From assembly GCA_937949545.1 (NCBI GenBank), contig CALEDR010000030.1:62001-126000 (forward strand): a DNA stretch of 64,000 nucleotides, given 5' to 3'. Origin of the DNA: an uncultured Phycisphaerae bacterium (lineage in GTDB: Bacteria > Planctomycetota > Phycisphaerae > Sedimentisphaerales > Anaerohalosphaeraceae). Positions 30,577 to 60,438 of this stretch are shown here, in pieces. The notes beneath the pieces were generated by a model, which was not told the DNA's origin, made no database searches, and was given only the letters and a program-made list of their open reading frames with translations. The first letter of the stretch is position 1. Each line of letters opens with the position of its first letter. The position numbers and the translations under genes were made by a program.

Positions 30577-33138
30577 ATGGCACCAGAGTATTCTGCCGAG
30601 ATAATCCATCGACTGGAGGAGGCCTTTCGTCAGCTGGGCCTGCATCGCCCAATGAAGGTCAGCCGATATGAACCAGGAACAGAGCTGCACTATCCAATCA
30701 CTCCCCTTCCAGCTCGCAACACAGCCCAGGTTCGGCTCCAGATTGAGCGATTTGTTGGGGGCGGCTTTGCCGGACAGGTCTATCGAATCCGGCTTCTGGA
30801 AATCGCCGAAAACGGACAGCTGGTTCAAGAGTTTGGAGGACTCAAGCCCAACCACGTCTATGCGATGAAGATTCTGATTCCCCCATCTGGAGCAGGCCGA
30901 CTGTTCCGGGATTTTCTCTATGCCGTCGGGTTTCAAGGCCCTTTTCAACCACAAGTCAATCCGGCAGCAGCCCGCGCCGGGGCCTTATGGCAGAAATTCA
31001 TTCGACAGGCGGCTGCATGGCAGTTTGGGGATGCCGAATGCGTCAATGAGATTTACGCAACCTTTGTGGACCCCGTGCTGGGCAGCTGCGGGGAAATCAG
31101 CCGCTGGATAGACGGGCGGACCTGGCGTCTGGAGGTGGATGACCGGCTGGACCTGCTGCGGATGTGGCGTAAAGGCCGACCAATACCGACTGAACAGGTC
31201 GGCTCGCCGGAATATCGCGCCAAATATGTCTTTATGCATGAATTTGTGCGTCTGCTCTACGAAATGGGAGCTTACGAATTTGCACGACAGTACGAGTGGA
31301 GCACCTGCAAGAGCCAGCCGAACTGCCTCAAACGGCTGGAAACAAACGCCGACCCCCAAGCCGGCCTTGTGGCCGTAGATTTCCGAGCGGGGCTGACCCT
31401 GCTGCCTTTCCTGCCCATGAGCCCAGGGGATTTTAAGTTGATCGCAAAAGGTATCGCACGCGGTTCACTGGTGCAGTTCGACCGCGGAGATTTGGCCCAA
31501 TTGGAACGGTATATCCAAGAGCATCCGGAAGCATTCGTTTCGATGCCGTACAAGGAACAGATGCTCCGGGAACTGAAGGAATGCGAAGAGATTTACCGCG
31601 ATTCGATTCCTGACATTACACACCATCACATTCGACTCCTGACAGACGGCCATCTATGGGCCTCAATTTTGTCCAGCGCTGTGACCAGCTGGCGGGTGCG
31701 AAACCAAATTGACACCGAGCATGAAAAAACACTGCGCGGCTGTGCAGGCAGGACCCTTCTGGTTTGGCTGCTCGGCCTCCTGCCGCTGCTGGGCCGCGTT
31801 TTGAGAAAGGCCTGGGGACAGCCGGACTGGCGATTCCATTATCTCCAATTGATAAGCTGCCCATCCTATCTGGGACGAGCCGTGATCGGAAAAATTTACG
31901 AGACACTGATTGAATGGCATCGCAAAGGGCGGCTGGGAAAAAAGCAAGTCCAGGCAATTTTTCAGGGCCTGTGGCGGTTTTGGCTGCATCTGCCGCTGGC
32001 CATTTTGCCGGCGGGACTCCATCGATTCCTGACGGATTGGGAATTCTTCTGCAGCCGGATGCATTGGATATTTCTGCGTCCCTTTCGGTTGTACTTTAAT
32101 CCTGCTCTCCGCGAGCAGTGGCTGCGGGATATGGTGCAGGAGGGGCAAAAAAAACAGATTCTCAGCGATGAGGATGCCGCCACCATTCTTTCACAAATCA
32201 AAGAGCCATTCATTCAGCGATATCTGGTATGTTTGGTGCTGCACTTGCTCACCTTGCCGGTTACACAACTTGTTGGACTGCTGATTGCGGCCGTTTACTG
32301 GATTTACCATCCGGAATTGTCTTTTTTGGAAGCGACCGCATTTGCAGGAATTGTCTTAGGAATTCTGGCCTTTGTCCCCATATCACCGGGCTCCTTTACG
32401 CGAGGTTTAATTACATCCATAATGGCTGTTCGGGACCGAAGTATAAAAGATTACAACATCGCACTGTTTCTCAGTTATTTTAAATATGTGGGATATCTGG
32501 CCTTTCCGATTCAGATGACCTACCGATATCCGGCCCTGGCAAGGTTTATGGCAGCTCACTGGGCCACAGATGCGGTCCATATTGTGCCGGTATTCGGAGA
32601 GCAAGGAGCCCTGCTGGAGCACGCGGTCTTTCGTCTCTTCTACAATTGGCCGCTGACCATTCGACGGCGGATGGGCCAAATCAGCAGGATAAGAATTGGT
32701 CTGAAGATTCGACTTTGGCCTGTAGCGGCGGCTTTCGCCGGAACAGCCGTTTTGATGACAGTTTCTCATCTTTTGTATTATACCCTGACAGACAATTCGC
32801 CGGCCAAAGAGAATTTATGGTACCTAAAACCGCTTTTGTGCTTCGCAACTTTGCTCCCGGCCGCCGCAGGATGGATTTCATCCAGATTTGCCGGCGGACT
32901 GGCACGGAGCAAACGAATAACCCTTGCTGGAATCGGAGCACTGGCTGCGGCCGGACTCTATACCCTCGGCTCTTTCTGGCTCGAAATGGGATGGGAAACA
33001 ACAGAAAAATCCGCTTTGATGATTCCACTTCTCTGGCGGGGTTTTGTATTCACACTAGCGGCTGTATTGGGGGCCGTTACAGCGGAAATTACCGAGCCGT
33101 CCCCCGATTTGCCGTTCCTCCTGCAACCCAAAAAATAA
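30577..33138 (+). CDS. Large protein with kinase-like N-lobe and many membrane segments, unknown
   Basis: I do not recognise this 853-residue protein as a named family. The N-terminus resembles a protein-kinase ATP site: RFVGGGFAGQVYRIRLL (58-74), then VYAMKIL with Lys98. A possible catalytic-loop relic is WSTCKSQPN (241-249) and VAVDFRAG (265-272) sits where DFG would be, but the HRD aspartate is missing, so it may be a pseudokinase. From about 390 follow about eight hydrophobic segments (393-410, 470-490, 550-577, 585-603, 713-735, 750-767, 783-800, 815-838). AAGGA precedes the ATG. It stands alone downstream of the divergent cupin. Confidence 0.6.
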   Translation: MAPEYSAEIIHRLEEAFRQLGLHRPMKVSRYEPGTELHYPITPLPARNTAQVRLQIERFVGGGFAGQVYRIRLLEIAENGQLVQEFGGLKPNHVYAMKILIPPSGAGRLFRDFLYAVGFQGPFQPQVNPAAARAGALWQKFIRQAAAWQFGDAECVNEIYATFVDPVLGSCGEISRWIDGRTWRLEVDDRLDLLRMWRKGRPIPTEQVGSPEYRAKYVFMHEFVRLLYEMGAYEFARQYEWSTCKSQPNCLKRLETNADPQAGLVAVDFRAGLTLLPFLPMSPGDFKLIAKGIARGSLVQFDRGDLAQLERYIQEHPEAFVSMPYKEQMLRELKECEEIYRDSIPDITHHHIRLLTDGHLWASILSSAVTSWRVRNQIDTEHEKTLRGCAGRTLLVWLLGLLPLLGRVLRKAWGQPDWRFHYLQLISCPSYLGRAVIGKIYETLIEWHRKGRLGKKQVQAIFQGLWRFWLHLPLAILPAGLHRFLTDWEFFCSRMHWIFLRPFRLYFNPALREQWLRDMVQEGQKKQILSDEDAATILSQIKEPFIQRYLVCLVLHLLTLPVTQLVGLLIAAVYWIYHPELSFLEATAFAGIVLGILAFVPISPGSFTRGLITSIMAVRDRSIKDYNIALFLSYFKYVGYLAFPIQMTYRYPALARFMAAHWATDAVHIVPVFGEQGALLEHAVFRLFYNWPLTIRRRMGQISRIRIGLKIRLWPVAAAFAGTAVLMTVSHLLYYTLTDNSPAKENLWYLKPLLCFATLLPAAAGWISSRFAGGLARSKRITLAGIGALAAAGLYTLGSFWLEMGWETTEKSALMIPLLWRGFVFTLAAVLGAVTAEITEPSPDLPFLLQPKK

Positions 33139-33279: not shown

Positions 33280-34029
33280 ATGAAGAATCCTTTTGGGTCG
33301 TTTTGCGACGGCCTGTTTTTGGACATGTGCGTGAGCACGCAGATGAAATTGCCCCGCCAGCGGGAAACCGTGCTGGCGTTTTTTGAGCGGATTCAGAAGC
33401 GATTCCCCACGTTGCATCAGTTTTCCCGTCGGGAACAGGGGGAACTGATTCTCGAAGAAGAGATCGAAGGACGCCGCCTCCGGTGGGTCGCTCTGGAAAG
33501 CCAGCGGCTCTCCGCCGGCTGCGCAGACCCGGACGATTTCGAGCAGGCCTACGAACTCCAGCGGGAAGTCATCGAGATTATGCCCTATATGCTGGGCGTC
33601 AGTCCCTTGGACATTGAATCCATCGATGTCACGTTTACAATGGATTTTGACTATCAGGGCAACCACGATGAAGTCATCGCCGAGGCCCTGCTGGGCAGCT
33701 CGAGTTTGAGCAGCTTTTTTGAAATCCCCGGTGCCAAGGTAGTCAGCTGCTGCCCAAATCTAATCGCCGCTTTGACACCAGACGGCTCGCTGCAGGCCCG
33801 GATCGCAATGGAATCCCGCAGCGGACTTTTCGAGCGAAATGACAAAGGAAAAATGGAAGAGCCGATTAGTCTGTATTTTACCGTTCGCCGTTATCCGGCC
33901 GGACAGGCCGAATGGACAACCGCAGATGCCTTTACGCAGCAATGCCGAATCACGGAACATCTAATGTTCGAGCGGATTATTCCCCACTTTGCCAGACCGC
34001 TGAGCAATGCCATATCCCAGAGACGATAA
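33280..34029 (+). CDS. Uncharacterised soluble protein
   Basis: A 249-residue, predicted cytosolic protein without signal or membrane segments that I cannot assign. Notable segments are FLDMCVSTQMKLPRQRETVLAFF, LQREVIEIMPYMLGVSPLDIESIDV, FTMDFDYQGNHDEVIAEALL and YFTVRRYPAG. The text looks like a compact alpha/beta fold, and in my recollection similar proteins recur in planctomycetes without a function. It starts 141 bases after the membrane protein and 32 bases before the next gene, so it may share an operon with the latter. Confidence 0.65.
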   Translation: MKNPFGSFCDGLFLDMCVSTQMKLPRQRETVLAFFERIQKRFPTLHQFSRREQGELILEEEIEGRRLRWVALESQRLSAGCADPDDFEQAYELQREVIEIMPYMLGVSPLDIESIDVTFTMDFDYQGNHDEVIAEALLGSSSLSSFFEIPGAKVVSCCPNLIAALTPDGSLQARIAMESRSGLFERNDKGKMEEPISLYFTVRRYPAGQAEWTTADAFTQQCRITEHLMFERIIPHFARPLSNAISQRR

Positions 34030-34061: not shown

Positions 34062-34544
34062 ATGGCGGTGATTGAGGCCCCCTTCAGCCGGTATAAACTG
34101 AAAAATCATCTGATTGTGATGTGGATTTTGCTCGGGGCGGCAGCGATGTTTGCCTACGACGGATATCTAAGCCGCTACGAATGGTCGGGCCGCTATTCCT
34201 TTTACAAGAAGCATGTGGTGGACAACGGCGGCGTGCCGGATTCGGATATGAAGTTCAATATGTACAGCCCTCCGTTTCTTCTGGCGGGCGCCGCTGCGGC
34301 TGCCTTCTTCTATGTCCGTTCCAAAAATAAAAAACTGACGGCGGATGAAACCGCCCTCCGGACGGAAACGGCCGCCATCCCTTATGAAGCCATCGAAAGC
34401 ATCGACAAAACCCATTTCGATAAAAAAGGATTTTTCACTCTCACCTATCAGGAAAACGGTCAGATGCAGCAGCTCACACTGTCAGACCGAAACTATGACA
34501 ATCTGGGAGCCTTGCTGGACCTTTTGGTCAGCAAGCTCAGCTGA
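34062..34544 (+). CDS. Two-helix membrane protein with PH-like cytoplasmic part, unknown
   Basis: A 160-residue protein with two membrane segments (about 15-33 and 69-87) followed by a small domain rich in strands (TAAIPYEAIESIDKTHFDKKGFFTLTYQENGQMQQLTL) and a C-terminal helix, similar to bacterial PH-like membrane proteins. The ATG at 34062 is preceded by AGAGG. Function unknown. It lies 32 bases before purA. Confidence 0.65.
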   Translation: MAVIEAPFSRYKLKNHLIVMWILLGAAAMFAYDGYLSRYEWSGRYSFYKKHVVDNGGVPDSDMKFNMYSPPFLLAGAAAAAFFYVRSKNKKLTADETALRTETAAIPYEAIESIDKTHFDKKGFFTLTYQENGQMQQLTLSDRNYDNLGALLDLLVSKLS

Positions 34545-34576: not shown

Positions 34577-35860
34577 ATGAATTGCTGTATTGCAGGACTG
34601 CAATGGGGCGACGAGGGCAAAGGAAAGGTTGTCGATATTCTCGCCGAGCAGTGCGGGTGGGTCGTACGCTACAACGGAGGTGCCAATGCGGGCCACACGG
34701 TGATGATCGGCGACCAGCGGTTCGCTCTGCATCTGCTGCCCAGCGGTGCGGTTCGTCAGGGCTGCCGCTGTGTGATTGCCAACGGCGTCGTGGTGGACCC
34801 GGCGGTATTGATGGAGGAAATTCGCGGACTGGAAGAACGAGGAATTTCTTTGCAGGGCCGGCTGTTTATCAGTGAAAATGCCCATGTCGTTTTGGACTAT
34901 CACAAACTCGAAGACCGACTCCGGGAGGAAGCCCTGGGCAAAAACAAAATCGGCACAACCGCCCGCGGCATCGGCCCCTGCTATGCCGATAAAGTCGGAC
35001 GCAGTTATGCCGTACGAATGGCCGACTTCCGCAGACCGGAGGAGCTGAAGGAAAAACTGCGGAAAATCATCTCCTACAAAAACAAACTGTTCAGCACACT
35101 GTACAATGCCCCGCCGCTGGACGTAGACGCCGTTTTTGAAAAATGCATGAGCTGGCGGACCGCCGTTCTGCCCTGCATTACCAACACCACCCAGCTGCTC
35201 TTTGAAGCCATTGACAAACAGCAGTCCATTTTGTTCGAAGGGGCGCAGGGAGCCCTGCTGGATTTGGACCACGGAACGTTTCCCTATGTCACCAGTTCCA
35301 ACGCCAGTCCGCTGGGGCTGGGACCCGGCTGCGGCATACCGGCCCGCTATGTGGACCGATTTATCGGAGTCGCCAAGGCCTATTCCACTCGCGTAGGCGG
35401 CGGGCCGTTTCCAACCGAACAAGACAACGAAATCGGTCAATACATCCGGGAAAAAGGACACGAATACGGCACAACGACCGGTCGTCCGCGCCGATGCGGC
35501 TGGTTTGATGCCGTGGCGGTCTCCTACACAGTCCGGCTGGGAGGCATTACTGAAGCGGCCATGATGCATCTGGACACGCTGGCGGGTCTGGAGGAGCTGA
35601 AAATCTGCCGGGCTTATCGAATCGGCGGTCAGGAAACCACGTTCTTCCCCGGCGACAGTCGAGACCTCGAAGCCGCCGAATGCGTTTACGAAACTCTCGA
35701 GGGTTGGAAGGAGGATTTATCCGGAATTGAGCACTACTCAGACCTGCCGGCTTCGGCACGCCGATACGTTCAGACCGTCGAAAAATATATTGGGATTCCG
35801 ATTACGATGCTCGGTGTCGGACCCCAGCGAAGCCAGGTCATTTACCGCAAACCTCTATGA
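34577..35860 (+). CDS. purA: Adenylosuccinate synthetase
   Basis: Joins IMP and aspartate with GTP in AMP synthesis. The 427-residue length is standard. GTP-binding loop GLQWGDEGKGKVVD (7-20), NGGANAGHTV, GTTARGIGPCYADKVGRSY, EGAQGALLDLDHGTFPYVTSSN and TTTGRPRRCGWFD are all intact. It begins a contiguous plus-strand series; its stop overlaps the uppS start (ATGA). Confidence 0.97.
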   Translation: MNCCIAGLQWGDEGKGKVVDILAEQCGWVVRYNGGANAGHTVMIGDQRFALHLLPSGAVRQGCRCVIANGVVVDPAVLMEEIRGLEERGISLQGRLFISENAHVVLDYHKLEDRLREEALGKNKIGTTARGIGPCYADKVGRSYAVRMADFRRPEELKEKLRKIISYKNKLFSTLYNAPPLDVDAVFEKCMSWRTAVLPCITNTTQLLFEAIDKQQSILFEGAQGALLDLDHGTFPYVTSSNASPLGLGPGCGIPARYVDRFIGVAKAYSTRVGGGPFPTEQDNEIGQYIREKGHEYGTTTGRPRRCGWFDAVAVSYTVRLGGITEAAMMHLDTLAGLEELKICRAYRIGGQETTFFPGDSRDLEAAECVYETLEGWKEDLSGIEHYSDLPASARRYVQTVEKYIGIPITMLGVGPQRSQVIYRKPL

Positions 35861-36630
35861 CGACGGATTTTGAAAACAAACGCCGTCAAACGGCCCTTCG
35901 GCTGGGTCTGAAGCCGGAGTTTTTGCCCCGACACATCGCCATTATTATGGACGGAAACGGACGATGGGCAACACAGCGGGGCCTGCCCCGTTTTCGCGGA
36001 CATGAACAAGGCGGCAAAACGGTAGAAACCATCGCCAAATACTGCGTCGATATCGGTCTGGAAGTTCTGACGATTTACTCCTTCAGCATGCAGAACTGGA
36101 AACGGCCGAAAGAGGAAATCGACTTTTTAATGTACCTGTACGCCGCCTACCTGGAGGGAATCCGGCCGATGCTGATGGAAAACAACGTACGGCTGGTTCA
36201 TCTGGGCACCCTTTGCCAGCTGCCGCAGAAGGTTGTGGACGCCCTGGAGGAAACCAAACGACTGACCGCCCAAAATACAGGGATGGTCCTGTGTCTGGCC
36301 CTCAATTACGGTGGACGGGAGGAAATCGTCCAGGCCGTCCAGCGCATTGCCGAAAAATGCCGCCAAAATCTTTTGGAACCTGATAAGATTGACGAAGCAT
36401 GCATCTCCACTCACCTATACACGGCGGGCTGCACGGACCCAGACTTGGTTATCCGCACCTCCGGGGAACTTCGCATCAGCAATTTTCTGCTCTGGCAGAT
36501 TTCTTATGCAGAATTTTACGTAACGGCGACCTTCTGGCCAGATTTCACCCCGGCGGATTTGGACAAAGCCCTGATGGCCTTTGCAGGACGTTCCAGACGA
36601 TTCGGAGATATTCGCCCATCAATATCCTGA
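35857..36630 (+). CDS. uppS: Isoprenyl (undecaprenyl) diphosphate synthase
   Basis: Makes the polyprenyl carrier for cell wall and LPS synthesis by cis-condensation of IPP. The 257 residues show HIAIIMDGNGRWATQRGLPRFRGHEQG, LTIYSFSMQNWKRPKEE, and DLVIRTSGELRISNFLLWQISYAEFYVT. Catalytic Asp in MDGN is present. Coupled to purA upstream and followed after 15 bases by cdsA, the usual uppS-cdsA pair. Confidence 0.96.
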   Translation: MTTDFENKRRQTALRLGLKPEFLPRHIAIIMDGNGRWATQRGLPRFRGHEQGGKTVETIAKYCVDIGLEVLTIYSFSMQNWKRPKEEIDFLMYLYAAYLEGIRPMLMENNVRLVHLGTLCQLPQKVVDALEETKRLTAQNTGMVLCLALNYGGREEIVQAVQRIAEKCRQNLLEPDKIDEACISTHLYTAGCTDPDLVIRTSGELRISNFLLWQISYAEFYVTATFWPDFTPADLDKALMAFAGRSRRFGDIRPSIS

Positions 36631-58930: not shown

Positions 58931-60295
58931 CTATTTTTGAAGGTTCAAGACCGCCTGACGGAAAACAGTTCCCCTCTCTTGATAGTTTTTGAACATATCA
59001 TAGCTGGCACAGGCAGGACTCATCAAAACAACATCCCCTTTTTGTGCCATTTTTGAACACAAAAGAACCGCTTCTTCCATAGATGCGGCTTTTCGAATAA
59101 CTGCCTTAGAAGGGCCTGCCGCCTTGACCGCATCGAGGATTTTGTCGGCGGTCTGGCCAATGAGAACAACGGCTTTGCAGCGGGCCGCAATGCATCGGCC
59201 GAGTTCTTCGAAACCGATATGTTTATCATAACCGCCCGCGATTAAAATCTTGGGTTCTTCGATGCCGTTCAAGGCGGCCATCGTGCTGATAGGTGTCGTC
59301 GCCTTCGAATCATTGTACCAGCGGACACCGTTGACTTCGGCCACAAACTGCATCCGGTGTTCAAGACCCTGAAAGCCCGCAATCGCTTCCAGCAGCATCT
59401 TTTTATCTGCATCGAAAACATCTGCAATTGTTAAAGCCGCTGCAAGGTTTTGAAGATTCACCCGCCCGGGCAGACGAAAAACATGGCGGTATTCATCACA
59501 AATATCTTCAACCTTAAACAAGAAGCAGCGGCGAAAATCCTGCTTCGAATACTCCGCAAACCATTCAAGACCGGTTTGATCTTCCGCATTAAAAACAGAA
59601 ACAGGCGAAAAGTCCGGATTAGGCCGCTGGTTTTCAAACAGGATTCTTTTGGCCGCTGCGTACGCCTCAAAAGTGACGTGACGGTCGAGGTGGTTAGGGC
59701 TTAAATTTGTCAAAAGAGCGATATCAGCCCCCCGTCTGCATTGGGACAATTGCTCAATTTGAAAACTGCTGATTTCCAGAACAACAATATCTTTTTCCGT
59801 CAGCTCTTTCAGAAGCCCCAAAAGCGGACGATTTCCGATATTGCCGCTTAAGTAAACATTTCCATAAGCCCATCTTTCAGATGCAGATGCGGCTTCGAGC
59901 AGGTGGGCCGTTAAGGCCGTGGTTGTGCTTTTGCCGTTCGAGCCGGTAATGGCGGCAATCCGGGCGGGACATCGCTCGAAAAACAACTCCACCTGCGAGG
60001 TGATGACAGCCCCGGCCCGGCGGGCAATTTGGAGAAAGGAATTGTCAGGCGGCACGGCTGGATTGACAACAACAACGTCGGCCGTGCGGAAATCCTCTTC
60101 GAGATGGCCGCCCAGGTGCCAGATAATCGGTAAAGAGCGCAGGGAATCAATGGTTTCGCGAAGTTTGGATTCGTCGGCCAAATCGGTCACGGTAACACGT
60201 CCGCCCTGCTCACAGACAAAACGGACGCTGTCCTGTCCGCCGCCGAACGAACCTAAGCCCATCACAACAATACGCTTATCTCTCAATTCAATCAC
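58931..60295 (-). CDS. murD: UDP-N-acetylmuramoylalanine-D-glutamate ligase
   Basis: Adds D-Glu in peptidoglycan precursor synthesis. 454 residues with an N-terminal Rossmann part (RIVVMGLGSFGGGQDSVRF), ATP loop AAITGSNGKSTTTALTAHLLEA, LTNLSPNHLDRH, EHRMQFVAEVNGVRWYNDSKATTP and the C-terminal GDVVLMSPACASYDMFKNYQERG. GTG start at 60295 with AAGGA eight bases upstream. It shows that this lineage builds peptidoglycan. Confidence 0.96.
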   Translation of the reverse strand: MIELRDKRIVVMGLGSFGGGQDSVRFVCEQGGRVTVTDLADESKLRETIDSLRSLPIIWHLGGHLEEDFRTADVVVVNPAVPPDNSFLQIARRAGAVITSQVELFFERCPARIAAITGSNGKSTTTALTAHLLEAASASERWAYGNVYLSGNIGNRPLLGLLKELTEKDIVVLEISSFQIEQLSQCRRGADIALLTNLSPNHLDRHVTFEAYAAAKRILFENQRPNPDFSPVSVFNAEDQTGLEWFAEYSKQDFRRCFLFKVEDICDEYRHVFRLPGRVNLQNLAAALTIADVFDADKKMLLEAIAGFQGLEHRMQFVAEVNGVRWYNDSKATTPISTMAALNGIEEPKILIAGGYDKHIGFEELGRCIAARCKAVVLIGQTADKILDAVKAAGPSKAVIRKAASMEEAVLLCSKMAQKGDVVLMSPACASYDMFKNYQERGTVFRQAVLNLQK

Positions 60296-60438
60296 AAAAG
60301 ATTCCTTTCTTTAAACGGCCTTAAAGATACCATCGGATTAAGAGGGTTGAAAATGAAAAAATGGGGCTTGAAGAAGAGTCGGATGAAAGAGACAATGCCG
60401 CATGATGTTTTGTCAGCAAGAGTAAGAGGAAAACAGGA

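Follow-up and report, generated by a model that had tools for sequence, protein, structure and literature searches.

A kinase-like membrane protein of 853 aa, which we label TGT, is encoded at 30577..33138 (+) of the window (the whole stretch of 64,000 nucleotides analysed here) and takes turns with the Und-PP phosphatase BacA/UppP, which is essential for recycling the carrier lipid of the cell wall, in one operon slot of the class. Judged from sequence and gene context, TGT probably, though by no means certainly, fills the UppP/BacA role as an integral membrane enzyme turning undecaprenyl diphosphate (Und-PP) into undecaprenyl phosphate (Und-P), which would be a third route, unrelated to the others. 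This reading is based on the shared slot, the mutual exclusion of the two genes, their in-place swaps, the fusions with PgpA and the absence of a known phosphatase from the window's genome. Bacteria that build glycans on Und-P must all dephosphorylate Und-PP, and to our knowledge the only Und-PP phosphatases are BacA and the PAP2 enzymes.

TGT is a conserved protein of Planctomycetota

The position and strand of the open reading frame in the initial annotation were borne out: it is a real, conserved gene with more than 60 homologues, and nearly all relatives keep it intact. The window's genome has a single copy. Homologues were present in 37 of 59 relatives, in 59 of 248 genomes of the class and in 11 of 294 genomes of the phylum. 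So far they are limited to Planctomycetota, the named carriers being Planctomycetota/Phycisphaerales MAGs, and none was found in the plasmids and viral contigs searched. Searches of Pfam, NCBIfam and PDB sequences with single sequences and a profile gave chance matches only, none of them to a kinase. Recognised by no profile library tried and judged from the open-access literature, TGT appears to be a new, undescribed family. Both halves of the protein seem to be under purifying selection, and the strict conservation of the kinase-like marks and of the membrane half argues against a decaying relic.

TGT and BacA alternate in one operon slot

Gene neighbourhoods were compared between the window and 43 further loci; in four of these, the ORF set contained no recognised target. 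Read in the window's direction, the common gene order was HIT-dgt-pgpA-TGT-c2-c7-purA-uppS-cdsA-dxr-rseP. In most loci with the window's order, the gene directly upstream of TGT was a co-directional pgpA (phosphatidylglycerophosphatase A), as a rule at a distance of no more than about 120 bp. Downstream of TGT, the window holds c2 (33280..34029, +), c7 with a hydrophobic segment (34062..34544, +) and uppS (35857..36630, +; PF01255, E 3.5e-80), encoding the undecaprenyl diphosphate synthase that makes the supposed substrate Und-PP. The first two had been listed earlier as unassigned flanking genes; they are indeed conserved neighbours, but since both also flank BacA in BacA genomes, we dropped them as specific partners of TGT. 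The pgpA of the window's own genome lies on another contig, which we counted against an UppP-like role. A 3-keto-disaccharide hydrolase gene (PF06439; 29135-30345, −) and a cupin gene occupy the place that pgpA has in the congener G001, and pgpA was therefore displaced locally.

The slot has two occupants. For instance, G035 has the order dgt-pgpA-BacA-c2-c7-purA-uppS-cdsA, whereas the congeneric G045 has dgt-pgpA-TGT-c2-c7-purA-uppS-cdsA. Among the 59 relatives, 36 carried TGT, 20 carried BacA, three carried neither and none had both intact (p=6e-13). The corresponding counts for 248 genomes of the class were 58 with TGT, 175 with BacA, 15 with neither and 0 with both (p=6e-43). These Fisher p values ignore shared ancestry, and switches were therefore counted on a PgpA tree. 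This tree held 12 partner switches, a number about equal to that with shuffled labels; all of them were in place and nine are forced by well-supported branches. The TGT and BacA states both occurred within each of the genera g13, g16, g17 and g38.

In genomes without TGT, PgpA was mostly found in ORFs of about 450-500 aa, which are PgpA-BacA fusions (PF04608 2.5e-37 and PF02673 5e-65); elsewhere bacA came directly after pgpA. Such fusions, joining two lipid-phosphate phosphatases, are common in TGT-less Phycisphaerae (L209:2319-3710:+, L211, L213-L215, L223 and L224). Two genomes of family f17 have PgpA fused to TGT instead; there it replaces the variable last 150 residues at the C-terminus (PF04608 3.9e-28 and, in the second case, L084, 1.7e-30). 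One genome (G027) carries a PgpA-BacA fusion beside a 258-aa TGT remnant in two pieces (L210:3290-4063:-), likely the footprint of a recent swap. The single nominal overlap of TGT and BacA, in G254, is a remote 596-aa paralogue (L234:1929-3716:-; hmmsearch E 5.5e-14). It has a different Gly-rich loop, GRGRSGVVFK, and shows GS..R and EH of the membrane motifs but no KSQPN, which hints at a wider superfamily beyond TGT.

Because swaps are frequent, the slot is single and co-residence within the class is zero, TGT and BacA most likely do one job. An envelope function unrelated to that of BacA, with the alternation coming from linked inheritance or sampling, seems very unlikely to us in view of the nine to 12 independent in-place swaps on the PgpA tree, the genera with both states and the overlap of 0 among 248 genomes. 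It does draw on the incompleteness of the MAGs, on the 15 class genomes with neither gene and on three deep-branching genomes where BacA and a TGT homologue (33-41% identity) occur together, namely G327 and G435 (both f71) and G441 (f43, a 1200-aa variant). These three genomes also count against the UppP-like role. The exclusion belongs to the main clade, and in the deepest TGT branches the function may be older or may overlap. No BacA row was found in five of the eight homologue genomes outside the class (G358, G405, G414, G493 and G542). The homologues of about 1200 aa (L064:1-3618:- and L065:1387-4965:+) have an extra membrane region and, at the C-terminus, a possible SGNH/GDSL-like domain (Lipase_GDSL_2, E 0.021, below the cut-off).

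The window's genome lacks both known types of Und-PP phosphatase

A 2025 review names BacA and PAP2 as Und-PP phosphatases, both active outside the cytoplasm (PMC12826051). Neither was found in the window's genome, which is 99.7% complete and encodes UppS. Und-PP is expected to be made and used in this organism, since the window encodes both UppS and MurD (58934-60310, −). Of the 36 genomes with TGT, 19 lacked BacA as well as PAP2; the window's genome and its five congeners are among them. A PAP2-family protein was present in 17 of the 36, a count that speaks against an UppP-like role. A previous survey had not found BacA, PgpB and YbjG in many organisms, and ascribed this to poor conservation (PMC5814848).

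The kinase-like domain keeps ATP-site residues and lacks the HRD Asp

The motifs were followed in an alignment of 63 TGT sequences, with counts for the kinase-like half mostly taken from 62 aligned rows. The Gly-rich loop GGGFAGQVY (residues 61-69; 30757..30783, +) was kept in 57-62 of 62 rows, Gly61-Gly63, Ala65, Gln67, Val68 and Tyr69 in 61-62 of them, and the β3 Lys98 of YAMKIL (30868..30870, +) in 61 of 61. The catalytic-loop equivalent RQYEWSTCKSQPN (residues 237-249; 31285..31323, +) has no HRD Asp: Lys245-Ser-Gln-Pro-Asn249 was kept in 62 of 62 rows, while residue 244, five before Asn249 and at the HRD-Asp position, was C, W, L, A or M and Asp in 0 of 62. D268 of the DFG-like Asp268-Phe-Arg (31378..31386, +) and D285 of the conserved MSPGD (residues 281-285; 31417..31431, +) were invariant (62/62 each). 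Asn249 and Asp268 were assigned as catalytic-loop Asn and DFG Asp by motif. The αC helix region (129-150) has no conserved acid in the alignment, so TGT apparently lacks the salt bridge that Lys and Glu usually form as well. The initial annotation had named the Gly-rich loop with Lys98, the Asp of VAVDFRAG and a TCKSQPN stretch without HRD Asp, and each of these features characterises the family as a whole: Lys98, D268 and the membrane block are all conserved, with no family-wide loss of the loop or the Lys.

The AlphaFold check proposed there was run on residues 20-351, as an AF2 model from a four-sequence alignment, and returned a kinase N-lobe (β1-Gly loop-β2-β3 with Lys98-αC-β4-β5) whose strands had pLDDT values of about 80-90, whereas the C-lobe stayed at 20-45. 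Full-length TGT modelled from four sequences reached a pLDDT of 43, too low for use. All Foldseek matches listed for the model were kinases, the best with E 0.010 and 0 below 0.001. In VIA, kinases made up 50 of the 50 rows listed (best Z 10.0 for GSK3b, rmsd 3.9, 87 aligned), with matches spanning model positions 14-165 only. An hhalign comparison with bacterial Ser/Thr kinases (STKs) that put the Gly loop and VAIK in register was marginal (P 0.016, reversed control 0.26); the control with ABC1 and STK, which are distantly but truly related, reached 96.5% / 7e-10. None of 31 TGT members had a Pfam kinase match. The models and matches indicate that TGT probably has a kinase-type N-lobe, as had been proposed, and may have a complete kinase fold, the structural likeness being solid over the N-lobe only.

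An ATP-dependent lipid kinase or transferase (e.g. an undecaprenol kinase), with Und-P made by another route and UppP unneeded, would fit the kinase N-lobe and the retention of the Gly loop, Lys98, Asn249 and Asp268. However, the HRD Asp and the αC Glu are missing, the product of the operon's UppS is Und-PP and not undecaprenol, and a kinase would leave the Und-PP from the polymerases unremoved, so that we hold this role to be quite improbable. The earlier wording, a membrane pseudokinase or new kinase type, is apt for the anatomy but misses the more telling fact, the alternation with uppP/bacA.

Among known kinase-like proteins, ActPs3/MviN of M. tuberculosis resembles TGT in that a kinase-type N-lobe without HRD Asp is part of a membrane protein acting in the lipid cycle of the cell wall. 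Its pseudokinase has lost ATP binding (VALT, no DFG; PMC12599244), whereas in TGT the Gly loop, the Lys, the Asn and the Asp of DFG are all invariant. The AMPylating pseudokinase SelO also lacks the HRD Asp and keeps other ATP-site residues (PMC8097203), but it has no membrane domain and gave no sequence match. ABC1/UbiB (PF03109) shares with TGT a kinase-like domain, a hydrophobic C-terminal part, lipid-linked roles and QV(H/Y) after the loop; in contrast to TGT, it keeps the catalytic D in HxDxHxGN. No PF03109 match was found, and hhalign of TGT with ABC1 aligned an unrelated stretch (P 0.004, not significant). Bacterial Ser/Thr kinases differ from TGT, which has no Pfam kinase match and a membrane part without known relative. 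The string 'Planctomyc-' is absent from a 2025 review of bacterial pseudokinases (PMC12599244).

The membrane domain carries invariant Ser, Arg and Glu residues

Hydropathy gave about eight hydrophobic segments, matching the number of membrane segments noted before. The membrane half was as conserved as the kinase-like half. In the motif PISPGSFTRG (residues 601-610; 32377..32406, +), P601, P604, G605, S606, R609 and G610 were kept in 63 of 63 sequences, as were G674, E675 and E681 of GEQGALLEH (residues 674-682; 32596..32622, +), H682 being present in 59. Q646 and N690 were likewise invariant (63/63). The C-terminal region of four segments (residues 705-853; 32689..33135, +) is variable; it is absent in L060/L061 and replaced by PgpA in L083/L084.

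The loops at 409-551 and 649-714 are rich in positive charge (25 vs 14 and 10 vs 4, respectively), and insertions, mostly in family f16, turn the 390-410 segment into a longer hydrophobic hairpin. The charge bias and the hairpin insertions suggest a cytoplasmic location for these conserved loops. Perhaps the active site faces the cytoplasm too, unlike those of BacA and PAP2.

With BacA/UppP (PF02673), TGT shares the operon slot, fusion to PgpA, an exclusive distribution in the class and conserved Ser, Arg and Glu residues with hydrophobic surroundings. It differs in its size (853 aa with a kinase-like domain, compared to about 270 aa), in its conserved loops, which likely face the cytoplasm, and in having no significant sequence or profile similarity. 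No PF02673 match was found by Pfam in 31 members, and hhalign of the membrane domain with BacA was not significant (P 0.07-0.095, reversed control 0.41), although that alignment places PISPGSFTRG in register with BacA's PGISRSG. PAP2 enzymes (PF01569; PgpB, YbjG, BcrC, LpxT) supply Und-P from Und-PP, as proposed for TGT. However, TGT does not show the signature KX6RP-PSGH-SRX5HX3D, its resemblance to K-x6-RP / R-x4-H-x3-D is not family-wide, and PF01569 gave no match beyond one of 31 members at E 0.076. A PAP2-like spacing of R656, H661 and D665 was rejected, as H661 and D665 are not conserved in the family. That neither BacA nor PAP2 is significantly similar to the membrane domain counts against the UppP-like role. 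By these comparisons, TGT does not show the features tested as defining for BacA, PAP2, ABC1 or canonical protein kinases; by its context it would work like UppP while standing outside the UppP family.

A proposed role for TGT in Und-PP recycling

In the role that we propose, TGT would turn into Und-P the Und-PP that UppS makes and that cell-wall polymerases release. The chemistry would be carried out by the membrane domain with Ser606, Arg609, Glu675 and Glu681 (63/63), the same kinds of residues as Ser27, Arg174 and Glu21, which are essential in BacA (PMC4641660). The kinase-like domain would be cytoplasmic and, with its Gly loop, Lys98, Asn249 and Asp268 kept, nucleotide-binding; placed beside the conserved loops, it could be a nucleotide sensor or regulator, or belong to the active site. 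The neighbouring reaction on a lipid phosphate would be left to PgpA. According to one account, E. coli PgpB alone covers both the PGP and the Und-PP reaction (PMC7413402), and the pgpA-TGT pair would likewise cover both. A phosphatase needs no domain resembling an ATP site, which weighs against this role. This domain would be used directly if TGT were a cytoplasmic-face enzyme of kinase fold that employs its own nucleotide site in making Und-P from Und-PP, for example with a nucleotide or a protein, and not water, taking over the terminal phosphate; we consider this rather unlikely.

TGT might also leave the dephosphorylation of Und-PP to PgpA or another phosphatase and make BacA dispensable by moving the lipid: as a flippase or a regulated carrier, it would take Und-PP or Und-P to the cytoplasmic face, with the kinase-like domain as a sensor. 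PgpA lies next to TGT or is fused to it, the strongly positive charge of the conserved loops that follow the hydrophobic segments points to a cytoplasmic face, BacA itself may take part in flipping (PMC12826051), and M. tuberculosis MviN is a peptidoglycan-synthesis membrane protein with a regulatory pseudokinase domain (PMC12599244). On the other hand, BacA genomes have PgpA too, fused to or beside BacA, so PgpA is no replacement for BacA, and the PgpA of TGT genomes is mostly an ordinary stand-alone protein of 165-180 aa. We regard a carrier as unlikely. A comparison of TGT with LPG_synthase_TM of the MprF flippase (PF03706) by hhalign was not significant (P 0.033 over 15 columns, reversed control 0.23).

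Implications

The existence of peptidoglycan in Planctomycetota was long denied. For this phylum, the TGT family provides a concrete candidate for the missing Und-PP phosphatase that can be put to the test. If TGT acts on the inner face, this would bear on the reason for confining the reaction to the outer leaflet, and a nucleotide-linked, cytoplasmic recycling of the carrier lipid would break the rule that Und-PP is dephosphorylated outside only. The role proposed here would, if true, also add to the known uses of the kinase fold.
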